Origin: Aquila chrysaetos chrysaetos
Taxonomy: Eukaryota > Chordata > Aves > Accipitriformes > Accipitridae
Reading direction: 5' to 3'
DNA: 64,000 nt
NCBI RefSeq assembly: GCF_900496995.4
Contig: NW_024470384.1
Span: 303,740 to 367,739 of the forward strand
In this document: in pieces, positions 2,945-62,352 of the stretch
Layout: every line of letters starts with the position of its first letter
Numbering within the stretch: the first letter of the stretch is position 1
Notes under the pieces: generated by a model
The model's input: the letters and a program-made list of their open reading frames with translations, nothing else
The model's database searches: none
What the model was told of the DNA's origin: nothing
Program-made: the position numbers and the translations under genes

Positions 2945-3500
2945 TGTCCCGTACTGGGAGGGGTGTCCGTCTCCCAGTACGTACTGGTGACCGGTGACTC
3001 TGTACTGGGAGGGGTGTCCGTGTCCCAGTACGTACTGGTGACCAGCGACCCCATATTGGGAGGGGTGTCCGTGTCCCGGTACGTACTGGAGACCCTGTAC
3101 TGGGAGGGGTGTCTGTGTCCCAGTATGTACTGGAGACCAGTGACCCCGTATTGGGAGGGGTGTCCATGTCCTGGTATGTACTGGAGACCCTGTACTGGGA
3201 GGGGTGTCCCTGTCCTGGTATGTACTGGTGACCCCGTACTGGGAGGGGTGTCTGTGTCCTGGTATGTACTGGTGATCCCGTACTGGGAGGGGTGTCCCTG
3301 TCCCCATACGTACTGGTGACCCCATACTGGGAGGGGTATCCGTGTCCCAGTATGTACTGGTGACCAGCGACCCCGTACTGGGAGGGGTGTCTGTGTCCCG
3401 GTATGTACTGGTGACCCCGTACTGGGAGGGGTATCTGTGTCCCGGTATGTACTGGTGACCAGTGACCCCATACTGGGCGGGTGTCTGCATCCCAGTACAG
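2945..3500. repeat. Minisatellite with internal inverted repeats in YJU2B intron 1
   Basis: About ten units of roughly 40-60 bp are built from GTACTGGGAGGGGTGTCC, then TGTCCCAGTAC, then GTACTGGTGACC. Because TACTGGGA and TCCCAGTA are complementary, every unit can fold on itself, and the joint CCAGTACGTACTGG is a perfect palindrome. The array lies between the inferred noncoding exon and the exon with the start codon. Confidence 0.85.
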
Positions 3501-3602: not shown

Positions 3603-5571
3603 ATGGTGAGTGGGGCCGGACGCTGCCGTGGCCACCGTGGCCGCGCCGGGGCCACCGCGGTCACACCGGGGCCACCGTGGCCGCGCCGGGGTCCCCGTCC
3701 GGCTCTAACACCCCCCGTCCCCCCCCCTTCAACCAGGGCGAGCGCAAAGGCACGAACAAGTACTACCCCCCCGACTTCGACCCGGCCAAGGTGAGGAGCT
3801 CGGCGGGGCTGGGGACGAGGACGCCCAGCTCCGGGTTTGGGGAGGGGGGGGGTTTGGGGGGGGGGTGGGCTTGCTGACCCCCCCTCTGCTTCCCTCCCGG
3901 CAGCATGGCTCCCTCAACAAGTACCACCACAGCCACCCGCTGCGGGAGAGGGCCCGCAAGCTGTCCCAGGGCATCCTCGTCATCAGGTGAGGGGACGTGC
4001 GGGGCTGGGGAGACCCCGAACCCTCCCTTCCCCTGCGGTGGGGGGGGGGGGGGCTCGTGCCGCGTCCCCCGCGGCTGCGGTGACGGCCCCGCGCCGTGTG
4101 TCCCCCTCCCCAGGTTCGAGATGCCCTACAACATCTGGTGCGACGGCTGCAAGAACCACATCGGGATGGGTGAGTTCTCCCGCCGGAATCGACCTCCTCT
4201 GAGCTCCTTCCCCCTGCTCCGGCATCGCCGGGGCTCCGCGGTCCCCGAATCCGCGTGTTCTGGATGCGGTGGGGGTTCTGATCCCCCCCCCCAACCCCAT
4301 TCTCCCTCGCAGGCGTCCGGTACAACGCGGAGAAGAAGAAGGTCGGCACTTACTACACGACGCCCATCTACAGGTGGGTGCGACGGCCGCGTCCCCATCC
4401 TTCCCCCCCTGCCGGGGGCAGTCCTGGGGCGCAGGGACCCCCACCCTGACCCCGTCCCCCTCCCCAGGTTTCGGATGAAGTGCCACCTCTGCGTCAACTA
4501 CATCGAGATGCAGACGGACCCGGCGGGCTGTGACTACGTCATCGTCAGCGGGGCCCGGCGCAAGGAGGAGCGCTGGGACATGAAGGATAACGAACAAGTC
4601 CTGCCCACCGGTGAGTCCCGGTTCCGCTGGCGAGTCCCGACCCCGAGAGGGACAACCGCCGAATCCCCTCGCTGTCCCCTGTCCCAGAGCGGGAGGAGAA
4701 GGAGAAGCTGGAGACGGATGCCATGTTCCGGCTGGAACATGGCGTGGCCGACCGGGCGACGCTACAGCGAGCCATCCCCACGCTGGCCAGTCTGCAGGAG
4801 GCCCAAAGCGCCTGGAAGGACGACTTCGCCCTCAACAGCCGGCTCCGGAGGCACTTTAGGGTGAGCCCGGGGAGGGGCTGGGGGGGGGCTCCGCAGCCCC
4901 CTCCCCTACCCGGCCGGGGCGGTTGACGGACCCCTCGTCCCCCTCCCCACCAAGGAGGAGAAGAAGACGCTGCGGGAGGAGGAGGAGGAGGCGGCGGCGC
5001 TGCAGGCGAAGGCCGGCCTGAGCATCCCTCTGGTGCGGGAGGCGGAGGAGGACCGGCGCCTGGCCGCGCTGCTCAAGTACCACAGCCCCGACTGTGCGTG
5101 GGGGGGCCGGGGCGGGCGGGGGGGCAGCAGGGGCCTCTGGCCCCCCACCCCTTGTGACCCCCAGCCTGTCCCCGTCCCCCTCCGCAGCCTACGAGGAGAA
5201 GCAGAGGATGAAGCGGACGGAGATCTCCAGCCGCTCCTGGTTCTCCCCGGCCACCAGCGGCAGAGGCGGCGAGGCACTGCGGAAGCTGGGCCTGGGGGGG
5301 CGAGCGCTGCGGGGCCGAGGGGGCCCCCCCGCTACCCTCACCGGCCTGGGCATCGTCCGGCGTCGCTCCGGAGAGGGGCCTGAGGGGCCGGCGGAGCCCG
5401 GGGGGCTGGAACGGGGCGAGACGACCCCCTGCAGCCCCCCCGCACCCGCCAGCAAGCTGCAGGGGGGGGGCCGAGGCCGGGACAGCCCCCCCTGCCACCC
5501 CCCCGGCTGCCCCGTCCACCTCCCTCGTCGCCGACTATTCCGACTCCAGCTCCGAGGCGGAGACTGCCTGA
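3603..5571 (+). CDS. YJU2B: Splicing factor YJU2B (CCDC130), 9 coding exons
   Basis: This is the YJU2/CWC16 family protein YJU2B (CCDC130), a nuclear factor linked to the spliceosome. Coding exons: 3603-3605 (ATG only, directly before GTGAGT), 3737-3790, 3904-3986, 4114-4169, 4313-4373, 4468-4610, 4688-4860, 4955-5093 and 5188-5571. The N-terminus MGERKGTNKYYPPDFDP, the zinc-binding pairs in WCDGCKNHIGMG and MKCHLCVNYIEM, and the acidic coiled-coil middle are diagnostic. The C-terminus reads DYSDSSSEAE. Exon lengths sum to 1096, one base over a whole frame. The last exon changes frame between 5280 and 5560, where G and C runs occur, so a one-base homopolymer error is likely. Corrected length would be about 364 residues, against 396 in human. 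Start and exon order are secure; the proline-rich C-terminal third is less so. Confidence 0.95.
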
Positions 5572-6026: not shown

Positions 6027-8570
6027 ATGAGCCTGGAAGCCATCCGGTACCGCCGCGGCTCCCTCTCCATCCTCAACCAGCTCCTGCTGCCGGAGCAGCT
6101 CCGCTATGAGCCCGTGGACAGCGTGGAGCGCGCCTGGGAGGCCATCCGGGCCATGGAGGTGAGCGAGGGGGGGGGCTCAAGGGACCCCCAGCCCCCCCCC
6201 CCCCCCAGGGATGGCCACCGAGCCGACTGCCGTGCCCGCAGGTGCGGGGGGCCCCGGCCATCGCCTTGGTGGGGTGCCTGAGCCTGGCGCTGGAGCTGGA
6301 GGCCGGCGCGGGGCCGGCGGGGGACGCGGCGGAGCTGGAGGCCTTCGTGGGCGAGCGGCTGCGGTTCCTGCTGACGGCGCGGCCCACCGCCGTCAACCTG
6401 GGCCGTGAGGCCGAGCGGCTGCGCGCCGTCGTGCGCCGGCGGGCCCAGAGCCCCGGCGTCACCGCGCAGGGCCTGCGGGAGAGGTACGGGGCGGGGGGGG
6501 GACGGGACACCGGGTCCTGGGGAGGGGGGGGGCTTGGAGAGAGGTAGGGGAGATGCTGGGGTCCCCTGGTGGGGATTTGGGGTGTGGGGTCATCGTGGAG
6601 AGTGGGATTTAGGGTGTCAGGGTCCCCCGGCGGGGGGATTTGGGGTGTTGAGAGAGGTGGGGTGGGGCACTGGGGTCCTGGGGGGATTTGGGGTGTAAGG
6701 AGAGGTAGGGTGAGTTGCTGGGGTCCCACAGAGGAGGTTTGGGGTGTAGGATCTCACAGAGAGGGTAATTTGGGGTGTGGGGGTCCCCCGGGGGACATTT
6801 GGGGTGTCAAGGAGATGCTGGGATCCCCTGGGGGCATTTGGGGTGTTGGGGAGTGGTGGGGTGGGATACCATGGTCCTCCTGGGGGGGGATTTGGGCTGT
6901 GGGATCTTGTGGAGAGGGATTTAGGATGCTGAGCTCCCCTGAGGGGGTATTTGGGGTGTCAGGAGAGGTCGGGCAGGGTGCTGGGGTCCCTCGGGGGGAT
7001 GTGGGGTGCCGGGGCAGGGGGTTCGTATGCCCAGGTTCTCCCCCGCAGCATCATCGAGCACATCGAGGGGCTGCTGGAGAAGGACCGGGAGGACAACCGG
7101 AGCATCGGGGCGCACGGGGCCCGGCACATCCTCCAGCGCGTCCCCGAGGGCGGCGTCACCCTCCTCACCCACTGCAACACCGGCACCCTGGCCACCGCCG
7201 GCTACGGCACCGCCCTGGGTAGGCGGCGGGGAGGCGGTGGGGGGAGCCGGGCAGCCCCCTCCCCGGGGCGAGCACCGGCCCTGACGTCCCCTCCCGTTGT
7301 CCGCAGGCGTCGTGCGGGCGCTGCACGAGCAGGGCCGGCTGACACGGGTGTTCTGCACCGAGACCCGGCCCTACAACCAGGGCAGCCGGCTGACCGCCTT
7401 CGAGCTGCTGCACGACCGCGTCCCTGCCACCCTCATCGCCGACAGCGCCGCCGCCGCCACCATGCGGGACCATGGCGTCCAGGGTCAGCGACAGCAGGGT
7501 GCATGGCGGGGGGGACGGAGACGGGACTGGGGGCGGGCTGGGGACCCGCTGACTCTCGCTCTGTCCCCAGCCGTGGTGGTGGGAGCCGACCGGGTGGCCT
7601 CCAACGGGGACACGGCCAACAAGATCGGCACCTACCAGCTGGCGGTGGCGGCGCGGCACCACGGCATCCCCTTCTACGTGGCGGCCCCCACCTCGTCCTG
7701 CGACCCGGCCCTGCCCGGCGGTGCCGACATCCCCATCGAGGAGCGGCCGGGCCGGGAGCTCACCCACTTTCAGGACCTGTGCCTGGCCCCCCCGGGTGGG
7801 TGTTGTGTCCGTCCCCGTCCCCCCCCCCAGTCCCGAAGGCAGCAGCGGGTCCGGGGGGGGGGGGATCCGGGGTGACCCCAGGGTCCCCATGCCGCCGGGG
7901 TGCTGGTGGCTCCAGCGGGGGTCACCCATACGGGGCAGGGGTGTCCCCTGTGGGGGTGTCCCTGTGCCCCCCAGGGTGCTCACAGGCCCAGGGGGGGTCC
8001 CATATAAGACACAGAGGCCCATATCGGGCAGGGGGATCCCAAACGGGGTGGGTAGGTCGGCCCTATATAACATAGTGGTTCCCATATGGGTTGGGGGGTC
8101 CTATATAAGACAGGAGTGTCCTATATGGGGTGGGGATGTCCCCACACCCCCCAGGGTGCTCACAGGCCCAGGGAGGTCCCATATAGACTGGGGGGGTCCC
8201 ATATAGAGTGGGTAGGTCTTGTATAGGTCAGGGGACTCCCATATGGAGTGGGGGGGGTCCTATAAGGGATGGAGGGACCCTATATAAGATGGGGGGGGGT
8301 CCCATATAGGGCAGAGGGTCCTGTATAGGGCGAATAGGCGCTATATAGGGCGGGGGGGGGGGGTCCCATCCCTGCTGGGGGGGTGCGCGGCAGGGCCGGT
8401 CCGACTCTCTTTCCCCCTCCCCAATCTCCAGGTATCGACGTGTGGAACCCGGCCTTCGACGTCACCCCCCATGACCTCATCACGGGCGGCATCGTCACCG
8501 AGTGGGGGGTCTTCGCCCCGGCGGAGCTGCGGCAGGCGCTGGCGGAGCGGGGGGGCGCGGGGGTCAGTAA
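6027..8570 (+). CDS. MRI1: Methylthioribose-1-phosphate isomerase, 6 exons
   Basis: MRI1 converts 5-methylthioribose-1-phosphate to the ribulose form in cytosolic methionine salvage. Exons: 6027-6158, 6242-6483, 7049-7218, 7307-7483, 7571-7795 and 8432 to about 8570. The start [19 protein letters not shown] matches the family. Catalytic regions are visible: the cysteine in [16 protein letters not shown] (exon 3) and the aspartate in [14 protein letters not shown] (exon 5). Substrate-loop motifs [13 protein letters not shown] and AAPTSSCD are present. Summed length is about 361 codons, close to human (369). The stop is uncertain: after [17 protein letters not shown] the given frame runs on without a stop into the next gene. 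A TAA at 8568-8570 lies in another frame beyond a G run, so I infer a homopolymer error there. Introns 2 and 5 are filled with minisatellites. Confidence 0.94.
6545..7000. repeat. Minisatellite in MRI1 intron 2
   Basis: Diverged units of roughly 30-60 bp repeat GGGGATTTGGGGTGT together with GGGGTCCCC and GAGAGGTAGGGTG. The array fills most of the intron and is strongly G-rich on the coding strand. Confidence 0.8.
7900..8370. repeat. Minisatellite in MRI1 intron 5
   Basis: Units of about 25-35 bp carry GGGGTCCCATATAGG and TATATAAGAC. The TATATAA strings recur in many copies and look like TATA boxes, but they belong to the repeat unit inside an intron, so I do not read them as promoters. Confidence 0.8.
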
Positions 8571-8724: not shown

Positions 8725-9248
8725 ATGGCCCAGGGCAGGCCCAAGGCAGCGGCCAAGCGGCCCGGCCGGGCGGCGGCGGGGGGGACCCCGGCCCGGGGGG
8801 CGCGGGGGCCGCGGAAGGGAGGTGAGGGGCGGCCGGGGTCGGGGGGGGCGTCAGTGGGGCTGAGGGCTTGGGCGGGGGGACGTGAAGGGGCTCGGGCTCT
8901 GCCCCCCGCCCACCCGCTGACACCCACCCCCCCCCCCCCCCAGGCCGGACCATCGCCCCCAAAAAGCTCCGTGTGATCCAGCAGCAGAAGCTGAAGAAGG
9001 TGAGGCTGGGGGGGGGGAAGTGGTGCGGGGGGGGGGGTGCCGGGTCGTGCCCCCCCCCCTCCTCTGACACTCCCGCCCTCCTCTGACATTCCCCCCCGCA
9101 GCGGCTGGAGGTGGGCATCCGGATGAAGATCGAGCGGGAGGCGGTGCAGCGGGCGGGCGCTGGCCTCCCCAAGAAGCTGGCGGTGGTCGCCGCACCCCCC
9201 GCCGCCGCCGGCCGCGCCAAGGGCAAAACCAAGAAGCGCCGGGGCTGA
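8725..9248 (+). CDS. C19orf53: C19orf53 homologue (Leydig cell tumour 10 kDa protein homologue)
   Basis: A small basic protein of unknown biochemical role. Exons are 8725-8821, 8944-8999 and 9102-9248, summing to exactly 300 bases, that is 99 residues plus stop, the same length as I recall for human. The protein begins [17 protein letters not shown]. It carries the conserved core [20 protein letters not shown] and ends in a lysine-arginine tail (GKTKKRRG). All splice sites are GT-AG with consistent phase. The start codon is only about 155 bases after the probable MRI1 stop, so promoter and MRI1 3' end must overlap or nearly touch. Lysine richness suggests nuclear or nucleolar location, which is inference. 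Confidence 0.92.
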
Positions 9249-9367
9249 GGACCACCCTGAGGACCACCCCCCCTCCTTCCCCCCCCCCCCGAGGCGCTGG
9301 GGGGGGGGGGGGGCGTGGCGGGAGCTGTCATGAGCGCGTCCGTCCTCAGCCATCGCTGTAATTGTCT

Positions 9368-9373
9368 AATAAA
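9368..9373 (+). terminator. C19orf53: Poly(A) signal of C19orf53 (AATAAA)
   Basis: A canonical AATAAA lies 120 bases after the stop codon. It closes the first gene group and faces the microRNA transcript, which runs on the opposite strand from about 11 kb toward it. Confidence 0.85.
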
Positions 9374-9469
9374 AGGGGTTTGGGGGGGGCGCGTGTCTCC
9401 CCCCCACCACCACCGCTGTTGGTGTTCCCCGCGTTGAGGGGGGGGGTCCCGGGGGGGGCGGCGCCGCGC

Positions 9470-9660
9470 GTGTGGAGGGAGCCAGGTCCCGGGGGGGGGA
9501 AATGGGGCAGCCCCGGGTGGCGGTGGGGGGGTCAGGGGGGTTCTTGAGGTCGGGATCCCGGGGGGGGGAAATGGGGCAGCCCCGGGTGGCGGTGGGGGGG
9601 GTCAGGGGGGTTCTTGAGGTCGGGATCCCGGAGGGGGGGGGGGGGGGGGGGCGCCGGGGC
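9470..9660. repeat. Short tandem duplication, about 73 bp
   Basis: A block containing CCCGGGGGGGGGAAATGGGG followed by CAGCCCCGGGTGGCGGTGG and GGGTTCTTGAGGTCGGGATC occurs twice in direct succession (starts near 9487 and 9557). No coding content was recognised. Confidence 0.7.
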
Positions 9661-9739
9661 CGGGGAGGAGCCTCCGGGGGTTCCCGGGGCCGGTGTCGCC
9701 GTGGGTGGTCCCGTCCCGCCGTTACGCTGCCGCTTTTCT

Positions 9740-10090
9740 GGCGCCGGCAGAACTTTATGAATGGGGTTCCCGAGGCCACGCCCCCTCTCGCCGGTACCGC
9801 CTCCCCGCCCTCTCTCCTTGCTCGTTGGTGGGCTGCGCCGTGACGGGCAGCTCTCTCCGCCCCGAGGTGATTGATAGAGGGAGGAGCGCCGGCGACCAAT
9901 CGGCGGGCGCCGGGGGCGGGGGCTGCGCTGCGGTTGGTTCACGCTCCCGCAGAGCCTTAAAGGCGCCGCGTCTCTTTTGGGAGCGGAGGGGTGGGGGGGG
10001 GACGGGACACGTGGGCAAACGCCCCCACAGTCTTTGGGTGGGGTCTGATTGGGCGTGGCCGGTGGTTGAGCCCCGCCCCCTCCCGCGGGG
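9740..10090. promoter_or_regulatory. CCAAT-rich promoter-like region, gene unknown
   Basis: The stretch has CCAAT at 9897, inverted CCAAT elements (TTGGTT near 9935, ATTGG near 10047), GGGGCGGGG and GC boxes, and a weak TATA-like CTTAAAGG near 9956. It lies between the 3' ends of C19orf53 and the microRNA transcript. That position would suit an unannotated transcript, but I recognise no exon here. The class is inferred from motifs alone. Confidence 0.35.
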
Positions 10091-10169
10091 GCCCCCTCCT
10101 CCGCCCCCCCCATCTCTGACATCAGGGAAATTCCCTGAAATCGGGCGCGTTTCACAAAGCGCCGCCGGG

Positions 10170-10175
10170 TTTATT
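10170..10175 (-). terminator. Candidate poly(A) signal of the miR-23a/27a/24 primary transcript
   Basis: The + strand reads TTTATT, giving AATAAA on the - strand about 425 bases downstream of the miR-24 hairpin. It is a plausible 3' end for the microRNA primary transcript. No transcript evidence is available. Confidence 0.5.
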
Positions 10176-10597
10176 TTGGGAAACAAACAGGGAAAAACGG
10201 GGGCGGGCGGGGCCCGGACTCCTGGGTCCCCGTCCTGCCGGGGCGTGCCCCCCGCCCCCCAACACCCCCCCCGTGACTCATCCCCGTAATCCCCTCATTG
10301 CCGGTGACGCCCCGTGGCGGGGGCTCCCGGGGCTGCTTATGGTCCCGGTCCTCCCATTCCCTCCTCTTTTTGGGGGACCCCCCCCGGGGGGGTTTCGGGG
10401 TTTCTGCAGTGTGGAAGAACCTGCGGGTCCCGGTGAGCTCGGCCGTGCACGCGGGACCCGGGCAGGGCTCCACCACGGGGGGTGGGGGGGGTCGGGGGGG
10501 GGGGTCCTGAGTGTGTCCCAGAGGGTTTTGGGAGACCCCGGGGTGGGGGGGGGGGGCAGTTCGGGGACCCCGTGGGCCGCCGGCGCGAGGGGCCAGA

Positions 10598-10663
10598 CTC
10601 CTGTTCCTGCTGAACTGAGCCAGTTTAACCAAAGCAACTGCATATCAGCTCAGTAGGCACGGG
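10598..10663 (-). ncRNA. MIR24-2: microRNA miR-24 hairpin (miR-24-2 position)
   Basis: The 3p arm at 10601-10622 is, read on the - strand, an exact match as I recall it to mature miR-24-3p (seed GGCTCAG). The 5p arm at 10638-10659 begins TGCCTACTGAGCTGATA, as in miR-24 5p products. The arms pair around a loop rich in T and G. It is the last hairpin of a three-miRNA cluster whose order and strand equal the mammalian miR-23a/27a/24-2 cluster. In human this cluster also lies antisense between C19orf53 and NANOS3. Confidence 0.95.
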
Positions 10664-10776
10664 AGGCAGCGCCCGGGGGGGTCCTGGCGTCCTGGGGGGG
10701 TCCTGAGGTCCTGGGGGGGGGTCCGACATCTGGGGGGGGGACACGGGACACCCAGGCGTCCGGCCGGGAGGGCACC

Positions 10777-10850
10777 GGGGAGCGGAACTTAGCCACTGTG
10801 AACATGACGCGGGTGCCAACTCTGTTCACAGGTGGGCTAAGCCCTGCCCC
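10777..10850 (-). ncRNA. MIR27A: microRNA miR-27a hairpin
   Basis: The 3p arm at 10782-10802 matches miR-27a-3p exactly on the - strand, including the 3' end GTTCCGC that separates 27a from 27b. The 5p arm at 10823-10845 begins AGGGCTTAGC, as in miR-27a-5p, then diverges. It lies about 180 bases before miR-24 in transcript direction. The 27a-type 3' end assigns the cluster to the 23a/27a/24-2 paralogue and not to 23b/27b/24-1. Confidence 0.95.
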
Positions 10851-10979
10851 ACGGCCCCGCGGCCCCCCCCCCCGAAACCACCCCACCACCCCAACCAAAC
10901 CCCCCACCCGAGCCCCCCCCCCACCCCACGCGCGGCCCCGTCCCGGCGAACTCCGACGTCCTGGCTGCGGGGGCTGGCG

Positions 10980-11051
10980 CCCGTTGGAAATCCCTGGCAA
11001 TGTGATTTTGGGCGAGATGGTAAAAAATCGCATCGCCAGGAACCCCGGCGG
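10980..11051 (-). ncRNA. MIR23A: microRNA miR-23a hairpin
   Basis: The 3p arm at 10986-11006 matches miR-23a-3p on the - strand (seed TCACATT, ending GGGATTTCC). The 5p arm at 11025-11046 begins GGGGTTCCTGG, as in miR-23a-5p. This is the first hairpin of the cluster. The promoter of the primary transcript must lie at higher coordinates, in the CpG-rich DNA beyond 11.1 kb, but no start site can be fixed by eye. Confidence 0.95.
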
Positions 11052-14000
11052 GCGGCAGCGGGGCAAGTGGGGGGGGCCGGCGGGCGGGGGGGGGGGGGAG
11101 AGCCCCAGGAGGAGTCAGCGATGATCCCACGGTGCGGCCACGGCCGTCGGCATCGGGTCGGGGCCGGATCCGGAGCCGTGTCCCACCTGGGGAGAGGAGG
11201 GTGCAGTCAGTGGCGGGTCCCGGCACCCCCCCCGGGGTGGGGGGGCTGCCCCGGGCACCTCGGGGCTGCCAGCTCCCGGCGCCGGGTCAAGCCGGGTCAG
11301 CGCTCCCCTCCCGCGGTAAAAATAACCCCGGCAGGATCTGGCCGGGAAGGGGAGAGCGTCCAGGCCGGCCGGGCGCCGCTGTGCCGAGGGGGGGGCACCG
11401 CCCCGGAGGAGCCGGCGCGGGCGCGAGCGCACGAGGGCTGAGTCACGGTGTGGGCCGGGCCGGGCACGTGCCAGCGCCGGACGGTGCCGTGGGGGGGGGA
11501 ACGACACGTGAGAGCCGGGACGCTTGTGCAAGGCAGGGTGGCACCGGGGACGGACGCTGCCGGCACGCCTGCCTGCAGGCCCCAGCACACGGCAGCGGCT
11601 CCCGGCCGCGGTGACGTCCTCGTGGTGCCGGTGCGGTCTCGCCGCTGGGGACCGTCCCGGTGGCTCGTCTCGGCGTGGGGGAGCGGGCACCGGCAGCGTA
11701 GACCCGGCCACGTGCTGCGCCCGGAGCCGGTGGCACCGCAGCTCCCCCAGCGAACGCCGCAACGCACCGCTGCCGAGCCCAGGTGTGAAAACGTGCGTCC
11801 CCAGCTGCCACCATGTGCCGGCGCCATCCCCACGGCGGGCGGGACGGGCGCTCGGTGCGCGCCGGATCCTTCCCGGCTCGTCCCCGGCCGCGGTGGGACC
11901 ATGTGGCACCGGCTGAGCCCCGGCAAAGCCCCCAGCGGGGAGGGGACGCGCCGTGGCTGGCGCCGCCCCGTCACCGAGCGGGCACGGCCCCGCCGCCCCC
12001 GTGTCCCCCAGCGCCATCGGCTGCGGCAGCCACCGGCCCCGGCGGTGTCGCCGCGTCCCCCTCGACCGTCGGCCGGCACCGGGACCCCCGTGTCCCCCGG
12101 TCCCCCTGGACGTGGCCACGGGGCAGATGTGGGGCAGCCGTGGGTTGGCCGCGGGGCGGCCGTGGGGCACGGTGTCCCCAGCCGGGTGGGGGACGCGGGC
12201 GTCGGGGCTCCGGCGACGCCGGCGGTGGTGGCTGGGAAGTTCCTGGAAGAAGCGTGTAATGGGGCCGGGGCTCCTCGGCCGCCATGTGGGAGCCGGCGAG
12301 GCCCCGCCCGGCCGTGACATCACCATCGCCACGGCAACGGGCGCACTTCAAAGGGAATCGGGTGGAAAGGGCCCAAAAAAATCGGGATAAACAGCGACCG
12401 ACGGCGGCGGCATAAACAAAATGTCTGGTGCTGCCGGGGGGGGCCGGGCCGGCGAGCGCGTGCCCGGGCGGGGGCGGGGGGCCGCCCGGACGCCTGGGTT
12501 CCCGCCTGGCGGCCGCGGCGCTACCAACACCTCGGTGCCAACGGGGCGGCCGCGGACAGCACCGCGGCGAGACCAGGCCCCAACTCGGCCAAAGTGAAGC
12601 CAACGCCGCCGGGCGCCGGGCACAGCGGCGGCACTGCGGGCGCAGCCCCGTGCCGGACGGCGGCCGATCCGCAGCGGTGCTGGCTCGCGGCCGCGGTGGC
12701 CGCCCCGAGTTTTGCCGCCTTCCAAGCGCGGCACGAGGGTGCCAGGATCAGCCTCGCGCGATGGGGTGACCCCGGTTTCGGGGGTCTCCGGCGCCCGCGG
12801 CCTCTTCCCAGGCGGGTGCTGCCGGCCGGGCCGGGCTCTCTGCCCGCGCGGCGCCAGGGCGTTGCCGGCTCGGCAGCCCCGACCGGCTCACGTGGGCCCC
12901 GGCGGGCACCGAGCGGGGGCGGCCACCCGGCCGCCTGGGTTCCCCGCCAGCGGGGGCTGGGGGGGGGCGGCGGCACCCCCTGCCAAAATCCCCACCTTTC
13001 TGCCCAAAAACGGGGAGCGGGAAAAGCCGGCGTCGCCGCGCAGCGCCTCCCTGACGCCTGCGGCCGGCGCGGCGGGATGCGGCCGCCGTGGGGCAGAGCC
13101 GCTCCCGTCGTTTCCCCCCCCCCCCCCCCCCCGGCGCCCCGGCTCCGCCGCGGTGCCCGGCCGCCCGGGTCCGCGGGCGTCGGGGGGTCGAGGGCCGGGC
13201 TGGTGTCCGGGGGGGGGGAGCGAGGCCCGGGGGTGCCAGCGCGGTTCCCGGCGTCAGCCGGGCCAAGGCGGGGGCGGGGGCCGAGGAGGAGCGAGGAAAG
13301 GGCCGCCCCGTCCGCGCCCGTCGGCACACGCAGCGCCGGGGGGAAAGGATGAATCACGCTCCTCGGCGGCGCCCGCCCCGGCGCACCCTCCCGCGGCCCC
13401 CGCCCGCCCGCCCGACGCACCGCGCCCGGTGGCGGGGTGGGGGGGGGTCCCGGCCCCCTCCGAAACCTCCGGCCGCCCCGGCCCCCCTCCCCCCCCCCCA
13501 TGCCGGCCCCCGAGCGGGCGACGGCGTTGGCGGCCTCGATGCCCGCGGCCGCGGTCGTGCCGCCGCCACGCCCCAACGCGCCGCCGGGATCCCCCCCGGC
13601 CCCGCGGGGCCCCGCTCTCGGCCCCGGCGGGAACCGGAGGGTCGCAACCCCTGCCCGCCATCCCCACGGTACGGCCTGGCACGGGCCCGGCGCGGTTTGG
13701 CACGGCTCGGCACGAGGCGAGCGAGGCCGGCCAGGCCCCGACCCTTCTCCCGCCGCCCCGGAGGGACGGCAACTTTCCTCCGGGGTCTCCCGCCGTGCCG
13801 GGGCCGGCCGAGCGCCGGCCGGCGGCCGTACTCACCGGGAGCGCCGGCGGCCGCGGCCCCCGTCGGGGTCCCCCGGGGCGGCGGCGGGCGGGCAGCCGGG
13901 GAGCGCGAAGGCTCCCAAAGTCACTGACTTTTACTCCAAGAAGGGAAATCCTTTTTAAAACCTTCGCTCCGCCCCGGGAGCGCGGCGAGGCCGCGGCGGC

Positions 14001-14200
14001 GGTGAGAGGAGGGGCCTGGGCCGCGGCACCCGGCTCCCGCACCCTTTCGGGGCCGCCGGGCCTCCGCCGCCGCCGCCGTGGGCGCGCGGTGCCGCACGGT
14101 CTGCGGGGTCGGCGACGGCGACGCGACGGCCGCCGGGTTGGCGCGACCCTGCGGCGAGGGCGGCACGTGCCCCCCCCCCTCCCCAAACACACCTCCCCGG
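11052..14200. other. CpG-rich noncoding stretch upstream of the microRNA cluster
   Basis: No exon was recognised on either strand. The stretch is CpG-dense, with one TGAGTCA at 11439-11445 and AT-richer islands at 12350-12425 and 13915-13975, the latter including TTTTTAAAACC. Because the microRNAs read leftward, this is the expected place for their promoter. Long overlapping open frames here are alanine-, arginine- and proline-rich with no family resemblance, and I treat them as chance. Confidence 0.5.
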
Positions 14201-14214
14201 CGAGGGGCCCCATG

Positions 14215-14885
14215 GCGTGAGAGCTGCGCCGCGCCCCACGGCGAGGGGACCGTGTGCTCCACGGCGAGGGGACTCGTTGCCCCGTGGCATAGTGGCCGCG
14301 TGCCCCACGGCAGAGGGGCTGGGCACCCCTCGGCAAGGGGTACACGTTGCCCCATGGCGAGGGGACTCGTTGCCCCACGGCGAGGAGGCCACGTGCCCCA
14401 CGGCGAGGGGGCCACATGCTTCACGGCGAGGGGACTCGTTGCCCCGTGGCATAGTGGCCGCGTGCCCCACGGCAGAGGGGCTGGGCACCCCACGGCAAGG
14501 GGGACACGTTGCCCCACGGCGAGGGGGACCACGTTGCCCCTTGGCAAGGAGGCCGCGTGCCCCATGACGAGGGGACTCGTTGCCCCGTGGCAACCGGTCT
14601 GGATGCCCCCATGGCACAGGAGGCGGGCACCCCATGGCAAGGGGGCCGCGTGCCCCATGGCATAGGGCCTCGGCACCCCATGGCAAGGGGGCTAGGTGCC
14701 CCATGGCGAGGGGACTCGTTGCCCCATGGCGAGGGAGCTGGATGCCCCAAGGCAGAAGAACTGTGCGTGCCCCACGACAAGGGGTCTGGGCACCCCACGG
14801 CGAGGGGTCAGGGCACCCCACAGCATAGGAGGTGGGGACCCCACGGCGAGGGGGCCGGGTGCCCCACAGCGTGGGAGGTCAGTGC
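14215..14885. repeat. Minisatellite, CCCCAYGGCGAGGGG units
   Basis: More than twenty units of about 25-35 bp repeat GTGCCCCACGGCGAGGGG and GGGACTCGTTGCCCC. Higher-order copies occur: blocks starting near 14258 and 14425 are nearly identical over more than 70 bases. No coding role is apparent. Confidence 0.9.
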
Positions 14886-15034
14886 CCGCAGCCCCCGTGC
14901 CCGTCCCAGTCTGTGCCTCAGTTTCCCCTGGGCTGCCTGAGGGGGCCGGGGCTACCTGGCTGTGGGGGGGTCTGAGCTGGTGCTGGGACGGATGGGGGTG
15001 ATGTTGGGGGGACGGGGGTGATGTCAGGGCGGGG

Positions 15035-15705
15035 CAGGAGCAATACTGGGGAGGCAGGACCAGTACTGGTGGGGCAAGAGCAATACTGGGGAGGCAGGAG
15101 CAATATTGGGGGGTCAGGACCAGTACTGGGGGGGGCAGGAGCAATACTGGGGAGGCAGGAGCAATACTGGGGGGTCAGGACCAGTACTGGGGGACAGGAG
15201 CAATACTGGGGGGGCAGGACCAGTACTGGTGGGGCAAGAGCAATACTGGGGAGGCAGGAGCAATACTGGGGGGTCAGGACCAGTACTGGGGGACAGGAGC
15301 AATACTGGGGGGGCAGGACCAGTACTGGGGGAGGCAGGAGCAATACTGGTGGGGCAGGACCAGTACTGGGGGGGCAGGAGCAATACTGGGGAGGCAGGAG
15401 CAATACTGGGGGGTCAGGACCAGTACTGGGGGACAGGAGCAATACTGGTGGGGCAGGACCAGTACTGGGGGGGCAGGACCAGTACTGGGGGCGCAGGAGC
15501 AATACTGGTGGGACAGGACCAGTACTGGGGAGGCAGGAGCAATACTGGTGGGGCAGGACCTGTACTGGGGGGGCAGGACCAGTACTGGGGGGGCAGGAGC
15601 AATACTGGGGGGGCAGGACCTGTACTGGGGGGGCAGGAGCAATACTGGGGGGACAGGAGCAATACTGGTGGGGCAGGAGCAATGCCAGGGGGACAGGGAT
15701 GAATT
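15035..15705. repeat. Minisatellite, CAGTACTGG/CAATACTGG units
   Basis: Very regular units of about 28 bp alternate GGCAGGAGCAATACTGGGG and GGCAGGACCAGTACTGGGG for some 24 copies. The regularity suggests recent expansion and probable length polymorphism. Confidence 0.92.
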
Positions 15706-16164: not shown

Positions 16165-16690
16165 GCAGGTATGGACCGGGGTGGGATATGGACCCAGTGG
16201 GATATGGACCGGGGTGGGATACGGACCCAGTGGGATACAGACTGGGGTGGGATACAGACTGGGGTGGGATGTGGACCCAGTGGGATACGGACTGGGGTGG
16301 GATACAGACCCAGTGGGATACGGACTGGGGTGGGATACAGACCCATTGGGATATGGACCGGGGTGGGATACGGACCCAGTGGGATACAGACTGGGGTGGG
16401 ATGTGGACCCCATGGGATATGGACCGGGGTGGGATATGGACCCAGTGGGATGCAGACTGGGGTGGGATACAGACTGGGGTGGGATGTGGACCCAGTGGGA
16501 TACGGACCAGGGTGGGATATGGACTGGGGTGGGATACAGAGCCACTGGGATACGGACCTGGGTGCGGTATGGACCTGGGTGGGATATGGATCAGGTTGGG
16601 ATATGGACCTGGGCAGGATACGGACCCAGCGGGACACAGCTCAGGGTGGGATACAGACCCAGATGGGATAGGGACCCAGGTGGAACACAG
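16165..16690. repeat. Minisatellite, GGGATAYGGACC units
   Basis: Units of about 19-20 bp alternate GTGGGATATGGACCCA and CGGGGTGGGATACAGACT for roughly 26 copies. The array ends where CpG-rich unique sequence resumes. Confidence 0.9.
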
Positions 16691-17489
16691 CCCCGGCAGA
16701 GGCGTCAGCCCCGCGACAGCTCGGCCCCAGCCCCGCAGCCCCCTTGGTGCCACCGCCGAGCATCGGCCCCACCGGGGACCCGCGGGGCCGAGCGTGTCGT
16801 GTCCCCCCCCGCAACCCCGGTTCCCGCGGCCTCGCCGGGCCGCCCCACCTGCGGGTCCTCGCGCGCCGCGGCTGGCACGTGGCCGCGGTGTCGCGGCGCC
16901 CTGGGGGTTAACGCAAGGCCTGGCCTGGTGCTGCCAGGATCCGGCCCGGCTGCCGTCACCGCCCGTCTCCGTGGAGATGATGGAAGTTCCTAAATACAAT
17001 TATTGGGAGGTTTTAGGTTTCCTCCGCGCCGAGGAGGGATAAACAATAGCGGGGAGGGACCGTGTGCCCCGTGGGGGGCTCGGCCCCATGACACCCCCCC
17101 CCCCAGCGCCCCCACGGCCCCACCTTTGCACCCGGCGGCTGCCGGCACGGCCACGGCACGATGACGACGGGTACGGCTGTGCCGCGGGGACCGTGGGTCC
17201 CCCCAAACCCCACGGTACGGGCCCCGGGTCCCCCCAGCCCTGGTCTGCACCCGGTGCCCACGGGGAGGTCCCCGACCCTGTCCCCATCCCCATCCCTGTG
17301 CCCCCAGCCCGGCCGCACATCTGGCAGCGGCCGCACATCTGGCAGAGGCGGCTCCCCCGGGGCAGCACAGCTGGGCGGGAGCCGCTGCGCCAGCTGCTAA
17401 TTTTAAACGCACGCGGGGCTGGACAAGGGGGGGACAACCCCACGCCCCCACTCCCCCCCGCGCCGTAGGGCTGGGCAGCGCCGCACACG

Positions 17490-21735: not shown

Positions 21736-24700
21736 TGGCCTGAGGTGACCCTGCGGCCCCCCCCCCCCCCCCCCCCCCCCCCCGCCCGCTTCCCCCCCCG
21801 TGAGCACCGACCGCGGCCCGGGCAGCACCGACCCCCGCGCCGGTACCGGGAGCTGGGGGGGGGGGGGGGGGGAGCGCGGGGGACCGCCTTCCTCCGAGGG
21901 GGGCACACACGGGAGCTCCGGCACCCCCCCAGTGCTGTGACAGGGACCCCCGGCCTTTCCCGCCGCAGGCCCCCGGTCGCCGCGGGGGGGCTGGTTTGGT
22001 GTGTGTGTGTCCCCGGTCACCCCCCCCCCCGCCGGTGTCCTGCAGGGCGTGGCACCGCCCCGCCCCTTCTTCACACCCCGCCCCGCTTCCCGCTGGTTTG
22101 GGGGGGGGGGGGTTGAGGCCCCCCCGCCCACCCCCACCCTCACCCACCGGCTGGGGGGTCCCGGCGTCCCCTCCCCACCGGGAGCAGCCTTCGGCCTCGT
22201 CCCCCCGCCAGCACCGCTCCCCGCCCGGGCCGGTTCTGGCGGGGAAAGGTGGGTGTTAGCGAAAACCGCCGCTCCCGCCGGGTCCGGGCCAAATTCGGGG
22301 CGTTTCGGTCAATCCCACCAGCGGGGAGAAGCCCCCGGCTCCGCGAAGGACCGCGTCCTGCTCGGTCGGGGGGGGGGGAGGGCTGGTTTAGCAGGGGACG
22401 GGAGGGACCTTTTTGGGGTGAAAGCCGGGGGAATCGGGGCTGGTTGCCGAGCGGCTCTGCCAACAAACAACCGCCCCGAGAGAAGCGGCGGGCGGGAGTG
22501 GGGCCGGGCGGCACGGTGAATCCCCGGCACGGCGCCCACCCCACACATCTCAGACCTACTTAATTAATTTTTCCCTTTCCCCCCGCCGTTTCTAAACCTT
22601 GAAACACGGCAGGTGCCGAGTGCGGAGCCGCGAGCAGGCGGCAGGGCCGGCCGGATGCCTTTACACCCGTCCGGAGCCGAGCGGGAAATGGTGTTTTTGC
22701 ACCCAAACGCTGCCCCGGGGCCGCCCTCTCATTGCCAGGCAGCAACAGGAGCCGCGGCCCCGGCCGGGGTTTTCCCGCTTCCCAGCACGAGGAATTTGGC
22801 GCGGGAGGCGCCGGGGCGGCCCGGCTGCTCCCCTGGCCTGGTGCCGCGGCCCTGGGAACGCGCTGGGCTTCGCACGCCGACTGGCGTTTGTTTTTTTGGC
22901 TTAAATGACTTTATTTTCCCCGCCCCGCTGCGTTGGGCTCCGGGATTCCCTGGCGCCGGTGGGGCCGCTGGTGCCCTTGGCTGGGGAGGGAATGCCGCCG
23001 TCGCCGCGCCAGGCGCACAAAGTGCCCATTCTTTGCCTTTCCAGGACTTTTTTTCGTTCTTTTTTCCCTCCTTCGCGGGGCCCCGCGGCTGTTCGCGGCA
23101 CGACTTTGCCCGTGACGTCACTGCGAGCCAATGGGAGGTGCGGCGAGCGCCGGTGCGGCACGGCCCCGGCCGCTCACCAAGCTCCTGCCTGCCGGCAGCG
23201 GCAGCAGCTTCGCCCCGGGACAGGGCGGACGGGCAGCGCCAGGCTGCGAAGGCGCTTCGGAAGGGCCGGGGGGAGCGGCCCCTGTTTTGAGGGGGAAAAG
23301 CCCTGTTTCCATTATTCTCCTGGCGCAGCCCGGTGCAGTCGCCCCATCCCTGAGGCTTTGGGGTTCAGGCCAAGCAGTGACACCGACGGCGCGCCGCAGC
23401 TCTGGTTCGTAGTGAATAAACGATGGGTCCCCCCTCGCCCCGGCGCTCGGTGGGTTCGGCTGTGCGTAAAAACCACCGTGGGTTTGGGGCGATTTGGCCT
23501 CTTTTGTCGGTGCTCGCTCCTGTCCCGGCAGCTCCGTCCCTCGTGGCCATGTCATGTCGGCACAGGGATGCCGCCGGAGTGGATGCCGCAGGGCTGGCAT
23601 GTGCCGCGGGGACCTGGCAGGTATTTCACGGTGCCGGGGGTGAGGGCAACATGCCGGCAGGGAGAGCAGGTTGGGGCCGGGGCTGGTGGCTGCAGGGACC
23701 CTTCCCAAGCCGGATCCTCGCCGTGTGCCTGCCGCAGAGTCTGCTGCTGGTGAACCGTGCACTGGGTGCTCGGGATAACCGCGAGGAAGAGCACGACTCC
23801 CCTCTGGCAGATGCTGATGCCGCTCGGAGCCGACACGGAGGCTCCGGAGAACATTCAACGCTGTCGGTGAGTTTTGTGGTTGAGGTGAAACCATCGACCG
23901 TTGCGTGTGCCCCGTGGCCCACCGGAGCGGCCGGGACAGTTGCTGCCGCTGCTTCCCCAGTGCCGCCTGCGGCACAGCCCCCTCTCGGTGACACCGCGGC
24001 ATCCCTGTGGCGTGGCGGTTCCGTCCCATTCCGGGAAGGTTCTCACTGGGAAGCTCCGCTCCGGAGCGGCATGGTGGGCAGAGCGCGTGATTTCCCAAAC
24101 CGACCGGATTTCATCGTGGGGTGCAGACGGGGCGTCCCTGTGCGGCGCCGTTCTGGCGGGTGAGCGCCGCTGTGTCCCCGAGGACCGACATTCACGCTCG
24201 ACACCCGTTGCTGGCGGTGGGTCGTGGTGCTGGGGAGGAAACTCCCGTGGGGGAGCAAAAATCCCCTTTTTTCTCTAAAAAGTAGGGGCTGGGAGGGCTC
24301 TGGGCCCAGCAGGGGACACCCGGGGGGGGCCGAGGCTTTGTGTCTCCCCGGGGGTTGTTGTGGGTGATTTTGCCGTCCATTAGCAGATGCTTTACCCGAT
24401 TCCGGGCAGTTTCAGCCCGAAGGCAGAAGCAAGGGCAGGGACTGGCCGCGCTGCTCCCAGCTTTAGTCCAGGCTTTGGGCGCTCTGCCCCGAACTCAGGT
24501 TTTTGGTGTCCCCGCACCACCCTGATGGGGTTTACGGGATGTAAATCCCATGTTTATCCACAAAAAAAGGCATTTCTGGCCGAGACGGGCGGCGTTGTGC
24601 CATGGGTGTTGGGGAAGGTGCCTGGTGCAGTTTGGGTCCTGCTGGATTGGGGGGAGCAGCCGGCGGCAGGTCCCCGTGGGGCCAAAGCCCCAAATCCGGC

Positions 24701-25027: not shown

Positions 25028-25454
25028 ATGGAGCACAGCCCCGCGTTCGACATGTGGAGGGACTACCTGGGGCTGGCCGCCGTGCTGGCCGCGCTGCCAC
25101 AAGAGCGCGAGGACGCCGGCGACGGCGAAGAGGCATCGGCGTCGCCCAACGCGCCGGAGGCCGCATCGGCGTCCCCCAGCAAATCCCTCTGCGCCTTCTG
25201 CAAGCACAACGGGGAGGCGAAGCACGTCTACAGCGGGCACAACCTGCGCGACGCGGGGGGGCCGGGTGCAGTGCCCCGTCCTGCGCAGCTACGTCTGCCC
25301 ACAGTGCGGGGCCACGCAGGACCGGGCCCACACCAAACGCTTCTGCCCCCTCACCCGCCATGGCTACACCTCGGTCTACAGCCGCTCGGCGCGCAACTCC
25401 GCTGGCAAGCGGGTCACAGGCGGCCGCAGTGCGGCGGGCAGTGCCAAGAAGTAG
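25028..25454 (+). CDS. NANOS3: Nanos-type zinc finger RNA-binding protein, single exon
   Basis: NANOS3 represses mRNAs together with Pumilio and CCR4-NOT and protects primordial germ cells. The start [16 protein letters not shown] resembles the family N-terminal NOT1-interacting segment (human has FDLWTDYLGL). The two CCHC fingers are visible: first finger CAFCKHNG with H in YSGHNLRD and C in QCPVLR, second finger [18 protein letters not shown]. Position between the miR-23a cluster and BRME1 matches human NANOS3. Frame +1 carries the N-terminus and first finger up to the G run at 25255-25261; after it the protein continues in the next frame. Removing one base gives 141 residues and intact fingers, so a homopolymer error inside the first finger is the simplest reading. 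Confidence 0.92.
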
Positions 25455-31043: not shown

Positions 31044-34000
31044 ATGAGCAAAGCCAGGAGGATGCCACCGGGCCACGGTGCCGCCATCGCCAGGCAGGTA
31101 CGGCCCGCTTCCCCCCCTCCTCGCCCCGGCAGGACGCTGGGTGTGCCCACCCCCCCGCCACCCCGGCCCGCGTGGGAGGGAAAGGTCGACGCCATAAACA
31201 GCTCTTCGGCAGGCAGAGGGAAACCTGAGCCATTGTGGGCAGGGCTGCCGGGCGCTTTCCTGCCGCACCTCCCGAGTGGGGACATCGGTCGTGCCGGGCC
31301 ATGTTTTGGTTAAATGGGTGCTAATGGCGATGCCAGCTCTTCCTATTGCAGGGTTTCTGTCACTGAGCTGGGAGCGTCTGCACTGTCTGTCGTCTTTATT
31401 TAAGTGTTTTAATTGTTTAAATGCTTGTATTTGCTTCGTTGCCTTGTGGATCACCGTGGCAGGGGCACTTGGGGCACTGTGGGCTCAATTCCGAACCGTG
31501 GGGCACGCTGGATTCCACCCCTAGAAGATGCATGTCAATCCCCTCCTTCCCTCTGCTGGATCCCGGGGGATTCTCTCGCACTAACGAGGCATCGTTAGCG
31601 TCATGCCCTCAGGGCTGTCCCTCCCTCTCCCTCCTCGCAGATGGGTTTGCTGGTGGACCTCTCTCCGGAGGGGACTGCAGGGGATGACACCGGAGATGAT
31701 GCCGCCGAGCTGGAGGCTGAGCTGCTGGCGCTGGTGGGAGGCCGAGCTGCGCCGGGAGAGAAGCCCAAGGGGAAAAGTGAGTGCTGCTGCTGCAGGGGGC
31801 TCATCTGCTGTCAATTTCTGGGATAATTAATAACACGGCATGTAGAAAGCGGGTCCTCTTGGGTTGTTTCTGCCTCCACCCCGGGCTGGACTCCCCTGCA
31901 CGTGGGCTTAAACCATCAAGAAACAGGTACGTGGCCCCAAAAAACCCTTCGTGCTGTTTCTGCTCCTCCAGCCCCTTTGCCGATGGAGGCGATTGAGAAG
32001 ATGGCTGCCCTCTGCATGAAGGACACGGACGAGGAGGAGGAGGGGGATGATGAAGAAGAGCTGGAAGATGAAGACGATCTCATGGTGAGAAGGGGTTGAG
32101 CCCCTGGGGAAGCTCTGGTCTCTGTGCCTCTGTCCCTGGGGCTTCATTCCTTGGGATCGCCTTATCCCAAAAAAGGGCTTTTCTGCCTTGGATCGTTGCT
32201 GATGAAACTCACGGCGCTTTGCAGGCCGAGCTGCAGGAGGTGCTGGGCGAAGGGGAAGGGAACACGGATGCACCGGTGCCTCCCGCCAAGGTACGACGCG
32301 TCTTTTGGCTCCGCTTCTGTTGTGTTGGTACCAGATCTGGCCCTTTTTAGCCTTTCATGTTGTTTTGTTCGTTTCCCTGACGAGAAAACGTGACTCTGTC
32401 ACATGAACCTGCTCCCCAGAGAAGTAAAAAACTTTCCTGGGGGTCAGGGGGAGGAGCCAGGTCCCCTCTGCCTTGTCCTCAGTAATGAGCAGCGTTGGAA
32501 AATGCAAGCATGGAGGCAGGATTTAGCAAATTTATTGGAATCTATGAGAAATAAGTCTCCAACAATCCTCTTTTTAGCTGTTCTCAGGCAATCCTTGTTT
32601 ATTAGCAGCTGTCGGCGTTCTCCTGCTGCTCCCTGGGGCTGTTCCTTGAGCCCGCAGAGGCTGTAAAATCACGGTGCAGATCAGGAAGGGTGGCTGCGCC
32701 AGACCTGGTGTGAGCCAGAGCCAGGTGCCAAGCCACCGGGTCTGCTCCGAGCCCCCGATCCGAACGGATATCGGCGGTGGGGGTAGCCCGGGTCTCGCTG
32801 GGTCGATCTGAGCGTTTCTTCTCGGGGCAGCTGCAGGTGCCGGAGGCGCTTCCGGAGCCCAGCGACATCGAGCCCACGCTGGCGGAGCGGGCAGACATGT
32901 ATCGGACGGCCATCGCCAACGCCAAGCAGGCCGGGGACAGCTCCAGGGTGCGGCGCTACGAGAGGGGCCTCAAGGTGAGCCGAAATCACGGGCCTGAGGG
33001 CTCATGGGACTCTGACACAAAGCCCTCAGTTTCCTTGAATCTTTAATCAAATGAAACCGTTTGATCTTGAATTCCCGGCTGAGCTCGGCCGGTGTTTCTG
33101 AACTCGGGGGTTTTGCGCTTCCGGCTGAGCTCTAGCCTCTCCCCGCAGCCGTGAGCCCATCTAGCTCCCCACAGGAATTACTCGGAGTTCTTGGAAAATC
33201 AGGTCGTCCTAATTTCAGTGCTTAATTGTAGGCGTTAACGTAAACCTGAGACGCACGCGGGTGCAGCCGCCTGCGATATAATTATCTCTGAGACCACGTT
33301 AAGCGCAGTGAGCTCCAGTTGAACATCTTACCCTGCTGCAGCGCTGGCTAAAACACGACGTTGAGGTCCCGATTCCTCATGGTTATTCAAAACCCTTTGA
33401 ATAGTCTTAGGATTATTTTTTCTATTTTTTATTTTGAGCCCTGTTTTCCCCTCCAGGCCATTTCCCCCCTTGGTTGAGCCCCTTCTGCCACGCTCAGGTC
33501 TTCCCTGCACCCTGTTTTGATGCAGAGCCCTCCCTGACCCCTGAAGCAGGATCGCGTATTGGGTCTGGGCTGTGACTCGCAAGAGGGTGATGTCTTTCAC
33601 CATTAAGAGCGTTTTTTGGAGCCCGTGAGGCTCCCTGAGGAAACCTGGGGGTAGTGCTGCCTTGTCAGGAGCAGAGCTCGCCCTTCCCCTTGGATTTTGT
33701 CCGCCGGCAGAGCGGTGTGGTCAGAGCGAGGCAGCTGGCCTCTCGCATGGGCTGGGAGAGGAGGCAGCTGAAGAGGTTTGTCGGGGGGGAATAAGGAGCT
33801 TGTAGAGTTGGGGGCTGGATTCCCAACCAGTGAGAAACCCCCAGCGCACAGCCCAAGTTTGGGTGCTGTTTTAGGCAGACGTTGGGTTTTCCCGCTTCCA
33901 GCGCCTTTGCTGCTGTCCTGGCAGGCTCTGAGGTTTGTCTTTTCACAGAGGTAGAGGAATACTGGAGTGACAGAGGGCTTTACTACTGTGCATGTTCCTT

Positions 34001-59299: not shown

Positions 59300-59319
59300 T
59301 GTTGTCGTTTCCGGACCCA

Positions 59320-60055
59320 CACGGCCCCAGTACTGACCCACGGCGACCCACACAGCTCTGACATGGACCCAGAGCAACCCACAGCGACCCACATGGCCCC
59401 GGCACCGACCCATGGTGACCCACACAGCTCTGACATGGACCCCAGAATGACCCACAGCAACTCACAGAGCCCTGGCACCGACTCCCAGCGACCCACACAG
59501 CTCTGACACAGACCCAGAGCAACCCACAGCGGACCCAGCACAGTCCCAATCACAATTCCCCAGCACGACCCACGCACGCTCAACATGTGACCAGAGCAAC
59601 CCAGCATAACCCACAGGGCCCTGGAACTGACCCATGGTGACCCACACAGCTCTGACATGGACCCAGAGCAACCCACAGCAACCCACAGGGCCCTGGAACT
59701 GACCCATGGTGACCCACACGGCTCTGACATGGACCCAGAGCAACCCACAGCAATCCCATGGCCACGGAACCAGCCCACAGTGACCCACGCATCTCTGACA
59801 TGGACCCAGAGTGACCCACAGGGCCCTGGAACCGACCCACGGTGACCCACGCATCTCTGACATGGACCCAGAGTGACCCACAGGGCCCTGGAACCGACCC
59901 ACGGTGACCCACACATCTCTGACACAGACCCAGAGCGACCCACAGTGACCCACATGGGCCTGGCACCAACCCACGGTGACCCACACGGCCCTGGAACCGA
60001 CCCACATGGCTCTGACACGGACCCAGAGAGACCCACATGACTGACATGGGTCTGT
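59320..60055. repeat. Minisatellite, GACCCACGGTGACCCACA units
   Basis: About fifteen units of roughly 45-60 bp combine CTCTGACATGGACCCAGAG, TGACCCACAGGGCCCTGG and AACCGACCCACGGTGACC. The array starts right after the IL27RA stop codon and may form its 3' UTR. No AATAAA was seen before 60.2 kb. Confidence 0.88.

Positions 60056-60600: not shown

Positions 60601-62352
<1,752 letters not shown>

Follow-up and report, generated by a model that had tools for sequence, protein, structure and literature searches.

We describe here a compact cluster of three microRNA hairpins in the golden eagle genome which is an ordinary, complete and very probably functional bird counterpart, by orthology, of a cluster already known. 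It lies in a 64-kb stretch of DNA that was analysed as a whole (the window). The three hairpins have exact 3p arms and a-type bases, the synteny is conserved, a separate b-type paralogue is present elsewhere in the genome, and the genome is of bird origin. We are highly confident that the locus, taken as a whole with the transcription and processing proposed below, is the avian orthologue of mammalian MIR23A~MIR27A~MIR24-2. It supplies a locus, for one bird species, from which the miR-23a and miR-27a products could come that were named in 2012 but not placed in the available text of that report (PMC3327661).

Hairpins of the cluster

An Rfam scan of the whole window gave four matches above the gathering score, three of which make up the mir-23/27/24 cluster (Table 1). 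The cluster spans 457 bases (10598-11054), is on the minus strand throughout and has the order 23-27-24. A first-pass annotation of this DNA had described three hairpins and a complete cluster, and both descriptions are borne out by Rfam scores over the respective gathering scores for mir-24, mir-27 and mir-23. Relaxing the threshold to E ≤0.05 brought in, for the window, nothing beyond the opposite strands of these hairpins and two hits that score far under cut-off.

Table 1. Features of the window and the evidence on which each was assigned
Feature	Position	Strand	Evidence
YJU2B/CCDC130-domain open frame	3878-4861	+	Pfam Saf4_Yju2, 1.8e-24
MRI1-type open frames	6933-8072	+	Pfam IF-2B, 1e-39 (7285-7872); 0.0031, below cut-off (6933-8072)
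C19orf53 piece, open frame	8886-9083	+	Pfam DUF2462, 7.4e-4, 20.6 bits, below cut-off 23
Candidate poly(A) signal AATAAA, primary transcript	10170-10175	-	423 bases past mir-24
mir-24-2 hairpin	10598-10667	-	Rfam RF00178, 83.1 bits, E 2.7e-18, gathering score 50
miR-24-3p	10601-10622	-	0 mismatches to human miR-24-3p
mir-27a hairpin	10775-10854	-	Rfam RF00644, 76.5 bits, E 1.5e-15, gathering score 48.5
miR-27a-3p	10782-10802	-	0 mismatches to human 27a-3p, 1 to 27b-3p
mir-23a hairpin	10978-11054	-	Rfam RF00642, 69.3 bits, E 1.7e-13, gathering score 52
miR-23a-3p	10986-11006	-	0 mismatches to human 23a-3p, 1 to 23b-3p
CpG-rich stretch, candidate promoter region	11000-14249	.	Upstream of mir-23a; suggested by CpG
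mir-181c hairpin	23839-23921	+	Rfam RF00076, 69.0 bits; only over-cut-off match of the window outside the cluster
Probable decayed mir-181d	24192-24222	+	24/31 bases as in own-genome mir-181b on contig C12
NANOS3 zinc finger, two frames	25190-25451	+	Pfam zf-nanos, 9.7e-6 (26.2 bits, below cut-off 27) and 1.4e-13
CC2D1A pieces	33834-36343	+	Pfam CC2D1A-B_DM14, 4.9e-8; second 0.0011, below cut-off
DCAF15 pieces	42264-43320	+	Pfam DCAF15_WD40, 2.3e-20, 9.6e-12, 5.3e-20
RFX1 pieces	48537-50518	-	Pfam RFX_DNA_binding, 4.4e-24; BCD_RFX, 6.4e-9
Clp protease (CLPP-like) piece	61842-62081	+	Pfam; near RFX1

The 3p arms of the three microRNAs are intact over all 64 bases relative to the human sequences, and the next-best site in the window for each 3p sequence has six mismatches. 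The earlier claim that both arms match holds fully for the 3p arms, which have no mismatch in any of the three, and less well for the 5p arms. Relative to human sequences, the 23a-5p arm has two mismatches (six to 23b-5p) and the 24-2-5p arm three (four to 24-1-5p). Human 27a-5p, placed without gaps, has its best site in the window away from the locus altogether, at 43211 with five mismatches, and so the 27-5p arm at the cluster has diverged from it; this arm is nevertheless covered by a gapped alignment to the human 27a hairpin.

The folding check proposed with the first-pass annotation came out as predicted in that all three segments fold as hairpins. Only mir-23 and mir-27 clearly beat their shuffled counterparts (z -5.86 each, with 0 of 200 shuffles as stable); mir-24 has a z of -1.59, its stability being matched in 13 of 200 shuffles. 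Extending the folded sequence to 151 bases shifts the pairing at the base of the mir-27 stem to the GC-rich flank. CNNC motifs are positioned 16 bases beyond the 3p arm in all three hairpins; the motif is frequent in GC-rich DNA, and these occurrences were set aside. Separately, the 19-base miR-27 core matched one viral contig, which had no Rfam mir-27 match, and we attribute this match to chance.

A b-type paralogue in the same genome

The genome to which the window belongs (1,233,704,830 bases in 144 contigs) was searched with family profiles; the window itself is C92:303740-367739, the last 64 kb of the 367,739-base contig C92. Of the top-ranked candidates to which scores were given (60, 59 and 62 for the three families), two per family exceed the cut-off. 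One of each pair is in the window cluster and the other in a cluster on contig C37 (C37:41609653-41610519) that has the exact 23b and 27b sequences; the further matches scored less than the cut-off and fell on the reverse strand of these hairpins. The main products of the two clusters differ by at most one base.

The distinction between a-type and b-type copies rests on human miRBase sequences. All three window hairpins align with a higher score to the human a-type hairpin (23a, 27a, 24-2) than to its b-type counterpart (23b, 27b, 24-1), and the mir-24 hairpin is identical at 63/70 aligned bases to human 24-2 versus 59/69 to human 24-1. Counted over ungapped columns, 35 of 219 bases of the a-cluster and 8 of 221 bases of the golden eagle's own b-cluster differ from the human hairpins. 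Both diagnostic 3p bases, the alignments to human hairpins and the synteny all indicate that the window cluster is a-type. The proposal that a 27a-type 3' end separates it from 23b/27b/24-1 is upheld, both by the mismatch counts (zero to 27a-3p, one to 27b-3p) and by the existence of a separate paralogue on C37. It might still be supposed that the b cluster was translocated or duplicated during bird evolution and that the window holds the resulting extra copy, its a-type bases having arisen by convergence, and the own-genome a and b hairpins are indeed still similar (55/72, 56/76 and 61/68 aligned bases identical). Such a history would have to account for a-type bases at both diagnostic positions, for alignment scores that favour the human a-type hairpins throughout, and for neighbours that match those of the human a locus; we give it next to no credence.

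Contig C37 is 88.2 Mb long and contains an exact match to mir-2954 at C37:16283053 (Rfam RF03446, 98.4 bits, cut-off 96). The available text of a 2012 zebra finch study describes mir-2954 as avian-specific and Z-encoded, and places miR-23b, miR-24 and miR-27b on the Z chromosome as well (PMC3585881). C37 is therefore very probably the Z chromosome. The mir-2954 match also identifies the genome as that of a bird, where the first-pass annotation had ventured 'probably avian'.

Neighbouring genes and synteny

Pfam domains and their order served to name the genes around the cluster; 20 open frames were submitted, of which 14 gave a match and six did not. The resulting gene order is coherent over about 47 kb: YJU2B, MRI1, C19orf53, mir-181c, NANOS3, CC2D1A, DCAF15, RFX1. 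In human, YJU2B, MRI1, C19orf53, NANOS3, CC2D1A, DCAF15 and RFX1 follow one another in the same order, and the neighbours fit an orthologue of human 19p13.13. Beyond the C19orf53 open frame there is a plus-strand AATAAA at 9368. Ten long open frames between the cluster and mir-181c (11.1-23.3 kb), drawn from 81 open frames listed around 9.5-26.5 kb, have no Pfam match. Near RFX1 the window contains a piece of a Clp protease gene, which in human is not known to lie beside RFX1, so that the gene order would differ at this point.

The NANOS3 zinc finger, whose match in the own-genome search scores 54.5 bits, switches frame at about 25240-25272, near a run of seven G; either a miscalled homopolymer or a genuine shift of frame may lie behind this. 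Base errors of this kind are possible, and together with the shortness of the contig (367,739 bases) they are what could be said for the window being a contaminant or a misassembly rather than part of the bird genome. Against this stand the coherent gene order, the presence of exactly one copy outside C37 among the candidates scored, and the divergence from the human hairpins, which speaks against human DNA, and we regard the probability of such an origin as very small.

In human, ZSWIM4 is located between C19orf53 and the microRNA cluster. It is absent from the corresponding interval of the window (9083-10598): SWIM motifs gave no match, and the 1.5 kb between the end of the C19orf53 open frame (9083) and mir-24 leaves little room for the gene. 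Elsewhere in the golden eagle genome, Pfam SWIM matches just two sites, both on C3, and is hardly informative on ZSWIM4-8. Pfam ZSWIM4-8_C matches six pieces, which we interpret as four genes, on C37, C12, C28 and C11, and none on C92. The match at C28:3037750-3038256 may, by elimination, be ZSWIM4. The first-pass description of the mammalian order and strand between C19orf53 and NANOS3 'as in human' is accurate as to order, strand and flanks; the one gap in the synteny is the absence of ZSWIM4 from the interval.

mir-181 neighbours

The 5p arm of the window mir-181c is exactly miR-181a-5p, and the same 23 bases are found at two other loci in the genome. Reads from this arm would therefore be indistinguishable from, and counted as, miR-181a. 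Among 57 candidates scored across the genome, five mir-181 loci are over cut-off: pairs on C24 and C12, and the single locus in the window.

Beyond mir-181c, the short segment at 24192-24222 is a probable relic of mir-181d with a broken seed, as its resemblance to mir-181b suggests. An alignment as good as that of the C12 mir-181b hairpin was reached by none of 200 shuffles and by none of the 163 remaining window blocks; the corresponding figures for the C24 mir-181b hairpin are 1 of 200 and 0 of 163. For the three 181a-type hairpins of the genome, which do not stand out, 83, 104 and 79 of 200 shuffles did as well. The 23-base miR-181b has five mismatches at the segment, a value reached by 0 of 500 shuffles. 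The human MIR181D hairpin aligns more weakly: its score of 37 is reached by 2 of 300 shuffles and exceeded elsewhere in the window, where blocks score 38, and by itself this match would not establish a relic. Relative to the C12 mir-181b the segment has seven differences, every one a change from A/T to G/C, and the seed is altered from ACATTCA to ACACCCG. When four windows across the region were folded, none beat its shuffles (z -0.28 to -0.89), as against z -4.20 and -5.20 for the own-genome mir-181b hairpins.

GC content and proposed transcription

The description of the locus as GC-rich is amply confirmed, with a local GC content of 74% and 511 runs of at least seven G/C in the 64 kb of the window. 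Long GC-rich tandem arrays are found at 2948-3497, 14233-14875, 15031-15683, 16173-16694, 57179-57676 and 59314-59993. The hairpins are less GC-rich (mir-24 53%, mir-27 64%, mir-23 58%) than the spacers between them (78.5% and 80.5%), a contrast that fits selection holding the hairpins against GC drift.

We would predict the promoter, transcript ends, processing and targets of the cluster as follows. RNA polymerase II most likely transcribes the cluster leftwards, from a start in the CpG-rich stretch to the right of 11.06 kb; the observed/expected ratio of CpG in 500-base windows is 0.52-0.69 over the hairpins and rises to 0.83-1.07 to their right. The primary transcript would be short, run towards C19orf53 and end at the AATAAA at 10170, which is a plausible candidate for its poly(A) signal; no other AATAAA occurs on the minus strand within the first 22.9 kb, and the 64 kb have 12. 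The human cluster is likewise a short polymerase II transcript. Drosha/DGCR8 and Dicer would then release miR-23a-3p, miR-27a-3p and miR-24-3p, and these, since their seeds are the same, would be expected to repress the same target sets as the products of the 23b/27b/24-1 cluster.

The cluster in the avian literature

GC-rich DNA is hard to assemble and is often lost from bird assemblies. This difficulty, combined with products at most one base from those of the sister cluster, means that an a-type copy is easily missed. Surveys that score presence or absence at the level of families are blind to it, since the family still counts as 'present' through its b-type paralogue. A preprint on Phase I of the VGP, in its available text, scores microRNA families in just this way (PMC13320880).

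Avian expression of 23a, 27a and 24-2 is reported in one paper among those consulted, a 2012 study of small RNA from chicken, duck and quail. Its accessible text names 'the miR-23a-27a-24-2 cluster', with higher levels in the neural crest of duck, includes both miR-27a and miR-27b in its list and considers most of its new orthologues to be probably in assembly gaps (PMC3327661). By our inference, 'the 35' of that study include 23a and 27a. A single base close to the 3' end decides whether its avian reads are assigned to 23a and 27a. The suggestion in the first-pass annotation that the cluster may be thought lost in birds therefore needs qualification: GC-rich DNA is often missing from bird assemblies, but the products had already been named in birds in 2012 (PMC3327661).

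In the available text of other reports, zebra finch miR-24 is called 'solely' Z-encoded; unmapped reads were also compared with miRBase, and the main text contains neither miR-23a nor miR-27a (PMC3585881), a silence that is neither clearly for nor clearly against the cluster. Reads were assigned to the 23b~27b~24-1 cluster in chicken (PMC6410298) and named 23b, 24 and 27b in turkey (PMC11598555). Two reviews name miR-27a for poultry without giving a locus. Losses of non-coding RNAs in birds and gaps in microchromosomes are discussed in PMC4378963, the main text of which is without mir-23, mir-27, mir-24 or mir-181; we found no bird genomic locus for the a-type cluster in the portions of the literature searched. 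The same paper reports mir-150 to be absent from birds, and our search of the golden eagle genome for mir-150, run without a positive control, gave no match, in line with that report.

The locus could in principle be conserved but silent, its hairpins kept by chance or recently decaying and yielding no mature product. A mir-24 fold with a z of only -1.59, a diverged 27-5p arm, a neighbouring mir-181d that seems to have decayed, and the zebra finch main text without 23a or 27a (PMC3585881) are all compatible with a locus of this kind. Set against it are the 64 of 64 intact 3p bases between spacers of 78.5% and 80.5% GC, Rfam scores well over cut-off, and the expression named in other birds (PMC3327661, available text). 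On balance we think silence very improbable, if somewhat less so than the other alternatives considered above, and favour a functional orthologue.

The presence of two clusters bears on the dosage of miR-24. The golden eagle genome has a second miR-24 locus on a contig other than C37, and miR-24-3p is identical from both loci, so that treating it as Z-only is not justified in a bird that has both. A broader joint reading, which we put forward tentatively and consider rather doubtful, would be that GC-biased drift erased miR-181d whilst selection kept the four others, and that a hidden, non-Z a-cluster supplying miR-24 and the 23/27 seeds partly buffers an uncompensated, Z-linked b cluster. If a second, non-Z source of miR-24 did buffer the b cluster in this way, published dosage readings that treat miR-24 as 'solely Z-encoded' would be confounded.

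Comparison with known clusters

One close counterpart of the golden eagle cluster is human MIR23A~MIR27A~MIR24-2 at 19p13.13. The two differ in that the window has a diverged 27-5p arm, no ZSWIM4 in the interval and an apparently decayed mir-181d. They are alike in order, in strand relative to C19orf53 and NANOS3, in the 3p arms and in having mir-181c nearby, and the window hairpins are identical to the human ones at 60/73, 63/77 and 61/69 aligned bases. The avian miR-23a-27a-24-2 cluster of PMC3327661 has the same named mature products as the window cluster, and is described in the available text of that paper without a locus. The b-type cluster on C37 (mir-23b/27b/24-1) comprises the same three families in the same order and has an identical miR-24-3p, but is one base apart in 23-3p and one in 27-3p. 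It is also set in very different DNA, with a local GC content of 0.41 compared with 0.74 for the window cluster, and is spread over 867 bases where the window cluster occupies 457.
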